From positions 1 to 59,128 of IMG/VR virus record IMGVR_UViG_3300048554_000481: a DNA stretch of 59,128 nucleotides, one strand, 5' to 3'. Shown piece after piece: positions 22,798-48,702 of the stretch (its first letter is position 1; each line of letters begins with the position of its first letter). Source of the DNA: a virus. Below the pieces are notes generated by a model. It saw nothing but the letters and a program-made list of their open reading frames with translations. It was not told where the DNA came from and ran no database searches. The translations under genes and the position numbers were made by a program.

Positions 22798-23760
22798 TCA
22801 ATTTACTCCTATTTTTATAAGTTGATGTGATGTGTCTACCAACCGGCATGAAAAACTCCATTCATTATCATACCATGCTAACACACGAACACAGGTTTTG
22901 TCAACCACTCTTGTTTGTTCGCTAGCAAAGATACAACTTTGTTTAGTGTGATTAAAATCTACACTTACTAATCTCTCCTGAGAGTATTTTATAATACCTT
23001 CCATCTCGTGTCTTGAAGAATTCCATATACTAAGGTTTACCATACTTTCATCTACTTCACGTTCTACATTTAATGTAAGGTCAACTGCACTTACATTGGG
23101 TGTTGGTACTCTGATTGCACTGCCTCGTATTTTTCCTTGCATCTCAGGTATTACTAATCCAAGTGCATCTGCGGCTCCTGTGCTAGTGGGTATCATACTC
23201 ATAGCCCCTGCTCTAGCTCTATACAAGTCTTTGTGCCGTCTATCAACTGTTCCTTGGTCACCAGTATAACTGTGTATTGTAGTCATTTGTCCGTTGATAA
23301 TTTTAAGTTTATCATTTAATACTTTGACCAATGGTGCTAAACAATTTGTTGTACAACTGGCGTTACTAATAATACTATCGCTAGGCAAGATGTCTTGGTG
23401 ATTAACTCCATATACAACTGTTCTATCTACATTTTTTGCAGGAGCACTTATAACAACTTTTTTTGCTCCATTTTCAATATGCTTGTATGCTTTTTTACCG
23501 TCATTGAATGCACCAGTACATTCTAATACAACGTCACAACCAGTCCAATCAAGTTGATCTATATCTCTAGTGTGACTCCAATCGCAGTCTAAATCACCTT
23601 TCCAGCGACCATGTACACTATCATACTTTAGCAAGTGCATGTTTGTGTCCACATCACCACTTGCATTTATTTTAACTATTTCTATATCAGGTCTGTCTTC
23701 AATTATATGTCTTGTAACACATCTTCCTATTCTACCAAAACCGTTAATCCCTACCTTCAT
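22798..23760 (-). CDS. gap: Glyceraldehyde-3-phosphate dehydrogenase
   Basis: 320 residues. NAD-binding GINGFGRIGR (4-13), catalytic ISNASCTTNCLAP with Cys136 (131-143), His163 in MTTIHSYTGDQ, GAADALGLVIPEMQGKI, IRVPTPNVSAVDLT and the C-terminal WYDNEWSFSCRLVD give a complete type I GAPDH. Slightly shorter than the usual 330-335 at the N-terminal half. It reversibly oxidises glyceraldehyde-3-phosphate with NAD(P) and phosphate; with the aldolase gene it would serve lower gluconeogenesis or glycolysis. The start overlaps the PsiE-like gene. Confidence 0.95.
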   Translation of the reverse strand: MKVGINGFGRIGRCVTRHIIEDRPDIEIVKINASGDVDTNMHLLKYDSVHGRWKGDLDCDWSHTRDIDQLDWTGCDVVLECTGAFNDGKKAYKHIENGAKKVVISAPAKNVDRTVVYGVNHQDILPSDSIISNASCTTNCLAPLVKVLNDKLKIINGQMTTIHSYTGDQGTVDRRHKDLYRARAGAMSMIPTSTGAADALGLVIPEMQGKIRGSAIRVPTPNVSAVDLTLNVEREVDESMVNLSIWNSSRHEMEGIIKYSQERLVSVDFNHTKQSCIFASEQTRVVDKTCVRVLAWYDNEWSFSCRLVDTSHQLIKIGVN

Positions 23761-33098: not shown

Positions 33099-33127
33099 AG
33101 TATAGCACCAAGATGTCTTGTTGTCAA
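33099..33127 (-). promoter_or_regulatory. Early sigma70-type promoter
   Basis: TTGACA, 17 bases, TATACT on the minus strand with the shared spacer ACAAGACATCTTGGTGC. Drives the ligase gene. Confidence 0.75.
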
Positions 33128-33213
33128 GCTCTTTTTGCTAATAAAAAGTTTATTTTTGCATTACGGATTTGTCTGATGGCACGTTTAAAGCACCAGAGCG
33201 TGTAATTGTTCAT
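33124..33213 (-). CDS. Basic micropeptide below a structured leader
   Basis: 29 residues (MNNYTLWCFKRAIRQIRNAK then INFLLAKRA). GGGAG lies 7 bases before the ATG at the end of a folded leader (33214-33298). The peptide is highly basic with a Cys and a Trp. The stop codon lies within the -35 of the ligase promoter. Short length makes the call provisional, but the ribosome site is strong. Confidence 0.45.
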   Translation of the reverse strand: MNNYTLWCFKRAIRQIRNAKINFLLAKRA

Positions 33214-33298
33214 AACACTTCTCCCTTTCGGTTAAAGTGCGTTCCTTCGCTAGTGCTACTTCCGTCCCTTACGGGATGAACGATTTACTTAAAAATAT
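33214..33298 (-). ncRNA. Structured leader RNA candidate
   Basis: On the minus strand several hairpins follow each other: TCCC-GTAA-GGGA, GCG-AAGGAA-CGC, and CACTT...CC-GAAA-GG...AAGTG, with GNRA-type loops (GTAA, GAAA) in two. The last hairpin encloses the ribosome site GGGAG of the micropeptide at 33213. It is richer in G+C than its surroundings. Its class is not known to me. Confidence 0.4.
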
Positions 33299-36369: not shown

Positions 36370-37155
36370 TTAGAAGCTAAAACTTGCTCCAACTGCTGGT
36401 TTAATTTCTTCACTATCTAGATTGTATGCGCCTTCAGCAAATAGTGTTAAACCATTTACGTCTCTCTTCCAACCAAGACCAATGTTTTGTAATGCATCAT
36501 CTGCATCGCCATTGGTAAACGCTGTCATACCATTCATAGAAACATTTGCTTCGTATGCAACATCATCGCCATAGGTCATTACACCGCCAACTGCTACATC
36601 ACCCAAAGTATATCCACCGGCTACGCCAAATGTTGTGTCTTCTGAGTCTAAGTTAAAATCAATCACTGGATTGATAGAAGCTCCTGCTACTTCCATTGCA
36701 TAACCAACCTGTACATTGCTTAGGTCTGTGACATCATCTGTCATGTCAGTAAAGCCTAAATGTAGAGATAAGTCATTAGATGCAAATCGGATACTATCGT
36801 TGTCTGCTGGATCAGCAAGTGTGTCATCGCCAACTACTTCTAGTCCTGCTCCTGGAAAGATATCTCCTTGGTCACCAACAGAAACAGTACTTGCTCCCAT
36901 TGCCATTCCAAGCGTCCATCCATCAATGGCTAATCCGCCTTCGTTTGTGCTCAATAAGTTGATTGAAGCTGAAGCATTTCCTGCTACAGAAGCACCGAGG
37001 CTTAGTTCTGTTTTAGCACCAAAATCGCCGTCTGTTTGTTCAGTTACTTCAATACCAACACCGCCGGTAATTGCAACTGTAGGGGCTGAGTCTTGAGCAA
37101 AAACTGCGGTTGACATAGCTACTAGAGCTGTTGTCATTGCTAGTAAATTTTTCAT
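36370..37155 (-). CDS. Outer-membrane porin-like beta-barrel protein
   Basis: 261 residues from the ATG at 37155 (AAGGAAAAGA upstream). A clear signal peptide (MKNLLAMTTALVAMSTAVFA) precedes alternating hydrophobic/polar strands with many Gly and Asp (TELSLGASVAGNASASINLL; FGVAGGYTLGDVAVGGV; GLTLFAEGAYNL) and a C-terminal aromatic strand ending SFSF, the usual signal for outer-membrane insertion. Size fits small alphaproteobacterial porins. Phage-borne porins are rare; it could replace a receptor or alter uptake. Weakly acidic mature protein. Confidence 0.72.
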   Translation of the reverse strand: MKNLLAMTTALVAMSTAVFAQDSAPTVAITGGVGIEVTEQTDGDFGAKTELSLGASVAGNASASINLLSTNEGGLAIDGWTLGMAMGASTVSVGDQGDIFPGAGLEVVGDDTLADPADNDSIRFASNDLSLHLGFTDMTDDVTDLSNVQVGYAMEVAGASINPVIDFNLDSEDTTFGVAGGYTLGDVAVGGVMTYGDDVAYEANVSMNGMTAFTNGDADDALQNIGLGWKRDVNGLTLFAEGAYNLDSEEIKPAVGASFSF

Positions 37156-37245
37156 TATTCTTTTCCTTAAGGTTAAAAAAAAGACGTAAGAAAGCAAATA
37201 TTGTTGCTCTTCTTCGTCCAGTTATATTTAACTGTTTAAAATAAA

Positions 37246-37308: not shown

Positions 37309-37752
37309 CTATTCATGCTCTCCGCCATTGCCTCTGCCATTGCGACTTTGGAAGGCGGCAAACACATGTGGCTTACGTTTGGCTGTTTCAAATGTTGCTA
37401 CAGTAATTACAATGGCGGCAATCAACATAACGTGAGCCATTGCACTAATAGCAAATACAGTCCAACTGCCAACTAGCATAGCGAATGTGATACACCACAT
37501 CCATGCTAGCACTTGCATAAGCAAGTGTCTTACTTGTAAGTCCGGAATGTTTTTAAGTGGACTAACATCGCTGTTCATAACACTGTTCCAGCTGTTTACT
37601 ACAAATGTTCTCATTGGTGCGTATCCTTTTTCAAATATTACTCTAAGTGGGTAGTGTGCATCAGCATCATCACGAAATTCGATTGCGTCATTTACGTCAT
37701 CAAACAACTTAGATACTTTGTGCGTTTTAAAGAAAGCAGTTACTCTGTACAT
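37309..37752 (-). CDS. Two-span membrane protein, unknown
   Basis: 147 residues. The first 80 residues are polar and possibly cytoplasmic (FDDVNDAIEFRDDADAHYPL); two hydrophobic spans follow (about 80-103 and 104-125, WMWCITFAMLVGSWTVFAIS). Basic tail. It begins 22 bases after the tmRNA terminator, with AAGGGATAGAAT before the ATG. Unknown family. Confidence 0.6.
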   Translation of the reverse strand: MYRVTAFFKTHKVSKLFDDVNDAIEFRDDADAHYPLRVIFEKGYAPMRTFVVNSWNSVMNSDVSPLKNIPDLQVRHLLMQVLAWMWCITFAMLVGSWTVFAISAMAHVMLIAAIVITVATFETAKRKPHVFAAFQSRNGRGNGGEHE

Positions 37753-37774: not shown

Positions 37775-37797
37775 TAAAAACGCAACTATTCTGTTGC
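37775..37797 (-). terminator. Rho-independent terminator of the tmRNA
   Basis: GCAAC and GTTGC pair around AGAATA on the minus strand, followed by GTTTTTA. It lies just beyond the coding piece of the tmRNA. Confidence 0.6.
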
Positions 37798-38131
37798 CAG
37801 GTCAGTTGCCAACCCCGGAAACCTAATTAGGCTGCCATTGCCATTTCTGGCGCATAATTGTCATTTGCAATTATAGTTTTTGATCATTTTCGGAATCACC
37901 CGGCAAACTCCACTCAATTTTCATATCTGTCGATCCTAGTTCAGCCCCATCAAAAGCACACTGTATATTTTCAGCCACACGTTTATTTCTTGTTATAATC
38001 AGGATTTGTTGTTTTTCCCTAATGTATACCAAATGTCTAACTTGTGCCAACTGCCTCTCAATGTGTTTATGGTGGAGCTGTGGGGTACTGCCCCCCAGTC
38101 CAGTCTACTTCCACGTTGCTTCAACGTTTAC
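37798..38131 (-). ncRNA. ssrA: Circularly permuted (two-piece) tmRNA
   Basis: Reading the minus strand, an acceptor piece ends CAGCTCCACCA with CCA at 38072-38070, then an intervening stretch of 121 bases, then a coding piece starting at 37948 with GGGGCTGAACTAGGATCGAC, which matches the start of bacterial tmRNA. GGGGCTG pairs with CAGCTCC in all seven positions and places a G-U at the third pair, the alanyl-tRNA synthetase signal. A tag frame starts 80 bases into the coding piece. The order acceptor-then-coding is the permuted gene form known from alphaproteobacteria. The T-arm (TGGGG-GGCAGTA-CCCCA) lacks the usual TTCRA loop. It would rescue stalled ribosomes and tag their peptides. Confidence 0.88.
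37827..37868 (-). other. tmRNA proteolysis-tag reading frame
   Basis: Resume codon GCA at 37868, then codons giving ANDNYAPEMAMAA and a TAA stop at 37829-37827. Bacterial tags commonly begin AND/ANDN and end ALAA or AVAA, so the MAMAA end is a variant but keeps the double alanine read by ClpXP and ClpAP. Leading TATAATT before GCA is like other tmRNAs. Confidence 0.88.
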
Positions 38132-38136
38132 AAGTA

Positions 38137-38167
38137 TATTTATATACTATGTTTTAGGTATTGTCAA
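38137..38167 (-). promoter_or_regulatory. Dual early/late promoter of the tmRNA
   Basis: TTGACA (38167-38162), 17 bases, TATAAA (38144-38139) forms a sigma70-type promoter; the last eight bases also read TATAAATA (38144-38137), the perfect T4 late promoter core. The tmRNA could thus be transcribed at all times of infection. Confidence 0.6.
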
Positions 38168-38352
38168 GTCTCAATGGCATCTTTTAATACACATTTATAT
38201 TCAACGGTATCCCATTTGCCATCTGGTGGTATTAGTTGGTATATTGGAAGCATGTCATGACATTCTTTCTTAGTATCAAACCACTGCACATCTTGTGTTA
38301 AACAAGATCCGTTCAAACATACTGTTAGCAATATATGCCATATTACTTCCAT
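38164..38352 (-). CDS. Small two-cysteine secreted-type protein
   Basis: 62 residues. Short hydrophobic start (IWHILLTVCLNGSC) with two cysteines, then TKKECHDMLPIY and EYKCVLKDAIE, the Cys-helix...Cys-strand layout shared with the genes at 9687, 17696 and 17959. Overlaps the micropeptide at 38438 by TAATG. Its stop touches the tmRNA promoter. Confidence 0.55.
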   Translation of the reverse strand: MEVIWHILLTVCLNGSCLTQDVQWFDTKKECHDMLPIYQLIPPDGKWDTVEYKCVLKDAIET

Positions 38353-47929: not shown

Positions 47930-48172
47930 TTACAAATTATCTTTATTCTTTTCTTGCTCTTTGATCCAACGTTTACGAGCTTGCTGTTTTTCTCTACGTT
48001 TAATTGCACTTGGTTTTTCATAGAATTCGTGTTTACGCATGTCTTTAATCATACCTTCACTATTCATTAATTTTTTTAATCTTCTAAGTGCTCGAGTAAC
48101 ATCATTGTTGCGTACTTCAACATACAATCCATGCCTATCGTTAATATCAGAGCTTACTTTGTTTCTCTTCAT
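47930..48172 (-). CDS. rpsU: Ribosomal protein bS21
   Basis: 80 residues from the ATG at 48172 (GAGGAAAGA upstream; overlaps the infC stop). LYVEVRNNDVTRALRRLKKL (about 16-35) and EFYEKPSAIKRREKQQARKR (about 48-67) are clear bS21. It sits on the 30S platform near the Shine-Dalgarno helix, so a phage copy can bias initiation. Found in several marine and large phages. Coupled directly to infC. Confidence 0.9.
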   Translation of the reverse strand: MKRNKVSSDINDRHGLYVEVRNNDVTRALRRLKKLMNSEGMIKDMRKHEFYEKPSAIKRREKQQARKRWIKEQEKNKDNL

Positions 48173-48702
48173 TCTTTCCTCATCAATACACCGATCATAC
48201 GGTTTCCATTTATTGTAGGTTTGGTTTCCCAAATGCCAAAGCTAATATACTCAACTAGTCGATCCATTATATCAAAGCCAACTTGTTTGTTAGCATTTTC
48301 TCTGCCTTTATAACGTATCACACATTTTACTTTATTATTCTTTTCTAAAAATTTAATAATGCTTTTGCATTTAGTTTCGAAATCATGTACGTCTATTCCA
48401 AGTCTAAATTGTACTTCTTTGACTACTATCTGATTTTCTCTTTGTTTTTTAGCTGTCTCTTTTTGTTTGCGTTTTTGTTCGTAAAAATATTTATTAGCAT
48501 CTAATATTTTAGCAATGGGAGGTTCAGCATCCGCATTTATTACTACTAAATCTTTTTCTTCTTCTGTCGCAATAGCTAAAGCGTCATTCTTATTCATAAC
48601 GCCAAGTTGTCCAGATTCACTAACTACTCTAAGTTGATGAAATCTTATAGCATCATTGATCTGTCGATCATCTGATTGCCTTTTGTGTCTAAACTGTTTC
48701 AA
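48169..48702 (-). CDS. infC: Translation initiation factor IF-3
   Basis: 177 residues, full length. N-domain: RQINDAIRFHQLRVVSESGQ (9-28) and LGVMNKNDALAIATEEEKDL (33-52); linker: PPIAKILDANKYFYEQKRKQ (61-80); C-domain: VKEVQFRLGIDVHDFETKCK (about 94-113), KNNKVKCVIRYKGRENANK and MDRLVEYI. The frame has no ATG before the conserved N-domain; the start is most likely TTG at 48702 (or ATA). E. coli infC also uses a non-AUG start (AUU) for autoregulation. IF-3 screens start codons and dissociates subunits. Confidence 0.9.
   Translation of the reverse strand: MKQFRHKRQSDDRQINDAIRFHQLRVVSESGQLGVMNKNDALAIATEEEKDLVVINADAEPPIAKILDANKYFYEQKRKQKETAKKQRENQIVVKEVQFRLGIDVHDFETKCKSIIKFLEKNNKVKCVIRYKGRENANKQVGFDIMDRLVEYISFGIWETKPTINGNRMIGVLMRKE

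Follow-up and report, generated by a model that had tools for sequence, protein, structure and literature searches.

Two-piece tmRNAs are already known from phages: 53 were suggested among 133 unique tmRNA structures from 402 phages, and 50 of these 53 came from marine or aquatic samples (PMC9004378). Phage Melnitz has a tmRNA of the alphaproteobacterial type and yet a gammaproteobacterial host (PMC9004378), so a phage tmRNA of this type need not mean an alphaproteobacterial host. The gene is annotated in the roseophage DSS3_MAL1, whereas in the roseophages MD18, V10 and RcXuper and in the Sinorhizobium phage Phosso it is present yet unannotated. In DSS3_MAL1, MD18 and V10 (L026, L349 and L350 among the phage loci compared here) the permuted tmRNA is closely preceded by a GOLLD RNA. 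The DNA analysed in this work, referred to as the window, comprises the 59,128 nucleotides of IMG/VR record IMGVR_UViG_3300048554_000481 and is a fragment of a T4-like phage. It holds a permuted alpha-type tmRNA like those of the four roseophages and Phosso, with a tag different from theirs. As phage two-piece tmRNAs have been published, including that of Melnitz (PMC9004378), and annotated in DSS3_MAL1, the window copy alone is of an already known kind, with an enlarged spacer in which no gene is proven.

The bacterial genes of Rfam families RF01849 and RF04321, for example that of Caulobacter, share with the window gene the order of the pieces, the acceptor stem, the T-arm with its loop, the layout of the tag and the conserved TAGGNTCGAC and CAACAGAA blocks. 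They differ in the spacer, which measures 5-58 nt in 29 bacterial genes and 121 nt in the window and which carries protein genes in the phage relatives of the window. Phage Melnitz (L025) resembles the window in its permuted alpha-type tmRNA, its related tag (ANDNYVPVDYALAA), its TTGACA-17-TATAAATA promoter and a homologous small ORF directly upstream. The Melnitz-type setting of a phage without an SmpB gene of its own is also found within the 59-kb fragment. No near DNA match to Melnitz or to any other phage record was obtained for positions 36300-59128 of the window.

The two phages also differ in the placement of a glutamine riboswitch, which in Melnitz comes directly after the tmRNA, on its downstream side. 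The RNA-model scan of the window located it 4.5 kb away from the tmRNA (33236-33284, minus strand), and reading of the sequence added a basic ORF of 29 aa (MNNYTLWCFKRA...) after it, the two together spanning 33124-33284 on the minus strand and being followed by a DNA ligase gene. A similar small basic ORF comes after the riboswitch in Melnitz (MTLYQQWCYLKA...), in L196 and, more loosely, in L195. Given this recurrence and the 4.5 kb to the window tmRNA, the riboswitch and the small ORF can be regarded as a separable unit. Control of the tmRNA by the riboswitch, as proposed for Melnitz, is not supported here, and the probable target of the riboswitch is the small peptide.

Anatomy and surroundings of the window gene

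A preliminary description of this DNA had placed a two-piece permuted tmRNA with its own tag on the minus strand, and both its coordinates and its statements on the sequence were right, the Rfam models matching over their full length. The gene (38131-37779, minus strand, as are all its elements given below) scored 128.6 bits with RF01849 (alpha_tmRNA; E 8.7e-35, positions 1-355) and 115.3 bits with RF04321 (tmRNA_permuted). The covariance-model check proposed in that description thus gave scores above both gathering thresholds, 50 and 47 bits respectively. ARAGORN reported only a tRNA-Trp in the window and missed the tmRNA. Both matches are in the permuted order that had been read as the alphaproteobacterial form, with the acceptor piece followed by the spacer and then by the mRNA-like piece.

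Piece 1 (38070..38131), as delimited by the alignments to RF04321 and RF01849, contains the T-arm and the acceptor 3' strand with an encoded CCACCA end. The T-arm UGGGG-GGCAGUA-CCCCA (38081..38097) is 100% paired in 12 aligned sequences and three of its five pairs covary. Its loop had been taken for unusual, reflecting divergence or altered processing. This reading is wrong, because GGC(A/G)GUA is the consensus loop of alpha_tmRNA (GGCgGUA in Rfam) and is shared by the relatives. A local pattern search gave 50 phage T-arms, all with a loop of this form; the pattern itself fixed most of the loop letters, and the Rfam consensus is the independent evidence. The acceptor 3' strand, CAGCTCC with the encoded ACCA (CAGCTCCACCA; 38070..38080), forms seven of seven pairs with 37948-37942. 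Three of these pairs covary and the U70-G3 pair is invariant in the alignment, in agreement with the 7-bp stem and G-U pair first described. The intervening 121 nt (37949..38069), likewise noted before, have ends that pair with each other.

Piece 2, the mRNA-like part, runs from GGGGCTG through the stop codon of the tag (37827..37948), where the RF04321 alignment ends (37827). It opens with GGGGCTGAACTAGGATCGAC at 37948, the acceptor 5' strand being GGGGCTG (37942..37948), and a cut by RNase P is predicted before 37948. Pseudoknot PK1 (37881..37902) consists of CGG/CCG and TGAT/ATCA. The latter helix is 100% kept with two covarying pairs, and CGG/CCG is weaker, being paired in 69% of cells. 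The tag frame reads ANDNYAPEMAMAA-stop from the resume codon GCA (37827..37868), as originally translated, and the tag of L149 is identical. The 3' part of piece 2 (37779..37826), included in the RF01849 alignment, has the conserved ACCTGGCAACAGAA, in which AACAGAA is invariant in the 12 genes. Folding of the precursor, which had also been suggested, gave a structure better than 100 of 100 shuffles (z -3.2). The acceptor stem is present in the minimum-energy structure and is lengthened there by pairing of the spacer ends.

A sigma-70 promoter-like sequence precedes the gene, with a -35 element TTGACA (38162..38167) that is invariant in the 12 aligned phage genes and, 17 nt past it, a nearly invariant -10 region TATAAATA (38137..38144), which also fits the T4-type late motif. 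The complete TTGACA-17-TATAAATA arrangement stands upstream of nearly all 12 genes, that of the distant Melnitz included. The terminator scan found the hairpin GCAAC-AGAATA-GTTGC followed by GTTTTT at 37782..37797. Directly upstream of the tmRNA lies an ORF of 62 aa (MEVIWHILLTVC...; 38164..38352, minus strand) whose stop overlaps the -35 element. It is 57% identical by tblastn to an ORF inside the spacer of the sister phage L160, so that homologues of this ORF are found within a tmRNA spacer in L160 and upstream of the tmRNA in Melnitz. On the downstream side a membrane-type protein of 147 aa is encoded (37309..37752, minus strand), without a Pfam or PHROG match. It is very common in marine viral contigs, with at least 596 related stretches in viral contigs, and is also present in the tmRNA-holding locus L002. 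Positions 36370-37197 (minus strand) encode a signal-peptide-bearing, porin-like protein, possibly from a host, for which Pfam and PHROG likewise gave no match.

The clamp loader of the window is 59-93% identical to those of IMG/VR contigs of up to 172 kb, and among large phages the nearest are PA5oct-like (56%), Phosso (47%) and Atu_ph07 (45%). In contigs carrying an AlgH-like gene the tmRNA adjoins it. In a phylogenetic tree that included 12 sampled alpha genes of bacteria, the phage tmRNAs separated from these (support 95/75), with the window in a clade of 11 (support 98/91). A host search by DNA similarity and tag pattern in 385 genomes, from the class of an alphaproteobacterial MAG, returned short matches or unrelated tags only. 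The window also encodes a translation initiation factor IF-3-like protein (48169-48702, minus strand; PHROG 9787, E 1.8e-44) and a glyceraldehyde-3-phosphate dehydrogenase-like protein (22798-23760, minus strand), a record matching the latter being annotated as such. PurC, PRPP synthase, QueD, Hsp20 and plastocyanin-like genes are present in addition.

Selection on the gene and its probable function

The 12 aligned genes came from the window and its closest relatives, from Melnitz and from two sisters that have spacer genes, and pairs in four named helices were counted against shuffles and against a slid partner strand. In these helices 95.2% of the cells are paired and nine pairs have changed on both sides. 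Cells changed on both sides numbered 31 compared with 9.0 after shuffling, and covariation was 0.394 compared with at most 0.043 for the slid partner. The acceptor stem occurs as GGGGCTG/CAGCTCC, GGGCGAG/CTCGTCC, GGGGGCG/CGCCTCC, GGGGATG/CATCTCC and GGGGTCG/CGACTCC, the G3-U70 pair, which is the alanine identity pair, being constant in all. In PK1, the TGAC/GUCA helix has changed to TGAT/AUCA (window) and to TAAC/GUUA (L341). The compensatory changes of the acceptor stem, T-stem and pseudoknot among these 12 relatives, while G3-U70 stays, indicate a gene under selection. Together with the conserved promoter and the downstream hairpin and T-run, the paired-change counts give the tmRNA the appearance of an independent transcription unit on which selection acts.

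The same features extend to the 118 phage loci listed with at least six acceptor pairs, of which 117 have all seven. Position 3 is G opposite U70 in all 118, where U70 was fixed by the search pattern and G3 was free. At least 14 different acceptor stems occur among the phage loci listed, and AA, usually as LAA, is the end of 69 of their 71 distinct tags. The phage tmRNAs of L002-L024, L211 and L217 have tags that are very short (ANANYSLAA, ANANIALAA, ANFALAA).

On this evidence the phage gene of the window specifies, with a probability of about 0.9, a functional two-piece tmRNA of alphaproteobacterial type. Most likely it would be processed and charged with alanine by host enzymes and, joined by host SmpB, would rescue ribosomes in infection. 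Host RNase P would cut before GGGG, 3' processing would leave the encoded CCA, and host alanyl-tRNA synthetase would charge the molecule through G3-U70. No SmpB gene was found in the 59-kb fragment or in seven other phage records (eight searched; 10 of 14 control genomes were positive), and for this reason the SmpB of the host is the likely partner. It would carry the tmRNA to ribosomes stalled on broken mRNA. Translation would then restart at GCA and add ANDNYAPEMAMAA, by which the ribosome would be freed and the peptide marked for ClpXP-type proteolysis. Overall, ribosomes would stay available while host mRNA is destroyed.

A captured bacterial fragment or decaying passenger, brought in for example by imprecise prophage excision and functionless in the phage, has to be considered, as tmRNA genes are common integration sites and the phage genes score lower than bacterial ones. 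The RF01849 score of the window is 128.6 bits compared with 143-313 bits for the genes of 52 bacterial genomes, and some loss of tmRNA function may be reflected in this. A passenger is nevertheless highly improbable, because acceptor stem, T-stem and PK1 show compensatory changes, the promoter and tag are conserved, the position next to the AlgH-like gene is the same in relatives and the phage tmRNAs group separately in the tree. It is also very unlikely that the RNA mainly competes with or modulates host trans-translation instead of tagging. Phage RNAs of that sort exist, as reported for the tag-less tmRNA-like RNA of phage DS6A (cited in PMC11915505). In the window, however, the tag frame is complete and has the usual AA end, as it does in relatives whose tags otherwise vary, and PK1 ahead of the resume codon is kept with covariation.

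A functional tagging tmRNA could also use its different tag to redirect proteolysis, sparing or destroying chosen peptides, instead of adding rescue capacity. The wide variation of phage tags, some as short as ANANYSLAA and ANFALAA, speaks for this, but nothing links the variation to a function and the tag ANDNYAPEMAMAA keeps the ANDN start and the hydrophobic-Ala-Ala end (ANDN...AA) of bacterial tags. Redirected proteolysis therefore seems to us an unlikely, if conceivable, role. Because the ordinary alphaproteobacterial layout is retained, ordinary ribosome rescue is the simpler reading compared with special tagging or the feeding of proteolysis.

Small protein genes in the spacers of phage tmRNAs

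Bacterial spacers range from 5 to 58 nt with a median of 34 (29 genes, a sample of one class) and phage spacers from 8 to 247 nt with a median of 78 (118 phage loci listed). Spacers of up to 277 nt occur in further viral contigs, and the cultured phage Phosso (L347, PV764938.1, about 349.5-350.2 kb) has one of 410 nt; its permuted tmRNA is unannotated, with the tag ANDNVSTKVALAA, and no clear ORF was seen in the spacer. An ATG ORF of 30 codons or more is closed within 13 of 110 unique spacers listed, compared with 2.5 expected from shuffled spacers, and in 10 of the 13 a purine-rich, ribosome-binding-like motif stands just upstream. When loci were picked purely by a spacer of 222-252 nt, all 26 had a spacer ORF (63-73 codons in 23 and 43 in three), several of these loci being near-identical.

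Substitutions in the spacer ORFs point to constraint on the encoded proteins. The pN/pS values were 0.16 for L071/L072, 0.14 for L213/L236, 0.21 for L195/L271, 0.22 for L172/L185, 0.10-0.17 for L319/L329/L341, 0.05 for L333/L339 and 0.07 for L227/L335, each of the seven comparisons having P of 0.002 or less against shuffled columns. Pfam matches above the curated cut-off were obtained for the spacer proteins of L341 (DUF6356) and L332 (PGDYG). Two families of nested small proteins were compared with annotated phage records and gave no match. Genes nested in the spacer are found in L071, L072, L160, L195, L213, L227, L319, L326, L329, L332, L333, L339, L341 and L343; the tmRNA around the spacer genes is complete by Rfam in the scanned loci, and the tag could be read in most. 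Predicted genes for small proteins, complete and under purifying selection (pN/pS 0.05-0.4), are thus frequent in phage spacers. In L213, L236 and L287 the membrane-protein ORF of the spacer is overlapped in another frame by a further small ORF (MVIEMLGDSDEEPSSKKNIGGNV-like), as read by eye.

Within the clade of the window a spacer ORF occurs in four of 11 tmRNAs (L154, L160, L332 and L341), and the substitution test is positive for the L341 family. The spacer of the window itself contains an ORF of 59 codons with a TTG start that runs into piece 2 and is open in L049 too, but its substitutions show no protein constraint. The comparison with L049 gave a pN/pS of 0.65 (P 0.51) from only seven substitutions. 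On account of this negative test no gene is claimed there, and a spacer gene under purifying selection is supported in the relatives but not in the window.

Several spacer proteins are also encoded by free-standing genes, upstream or downstream of a tmRNA or in loci without an observed tmRNA, and spacer genes have therefore entered or left the loop. The ends of the spacers pair, with a mean longest helix of 10.6 compared with 6.6 for swapped partners (98 spacers), so that the spacer can be viewed as a hairpin loop extending the acceptor stem. In the phage lineage of the window this loop would tolerate, and often carry, small protein genes.

It seems probable to us that in tailed phages with an alpha-type split tmRNA the spacer is a site at which small protein genes dock. 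A single promoter would drive a precursor, and host RNase P together with 3' processing would free from it both tmRNA pieces and a short mRNA, unless the precursor is translated first. The small protein would in this way be coupled to ribosome rescue; the route of translation, from the precursor or from the excised RNA, we infer. Unrelated genes, for PGDYG, DUF6356 and small membrane proteins, would have entered the loop independently, and the window would belong to this lineage, its spacer being enlarged and the gene in it absent, lost or unrecognised. Protein genes within the spacers of phage split tmRNAs appear not to have been described before, a limited search of the open-access literature having returned no description of this kind.

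It is unusual for a protein gene to sit within the spacer of an RNA gene that is split, processed and structured. This arrangement makes testable the idea that one transcript is both the precursor of a rescue RNA and an mRNA, and it would explain why phage spacers exceed bacterial ones in length. The spacers are also a place for annotators to look, as both parts escape gene finders and tmRNA finders. Moreover, more than 100 phage two-piece tmRNAs, with divergent yet paired acceptor stems and varied tags, may allow comparative tests of what phages need from trans-translation.
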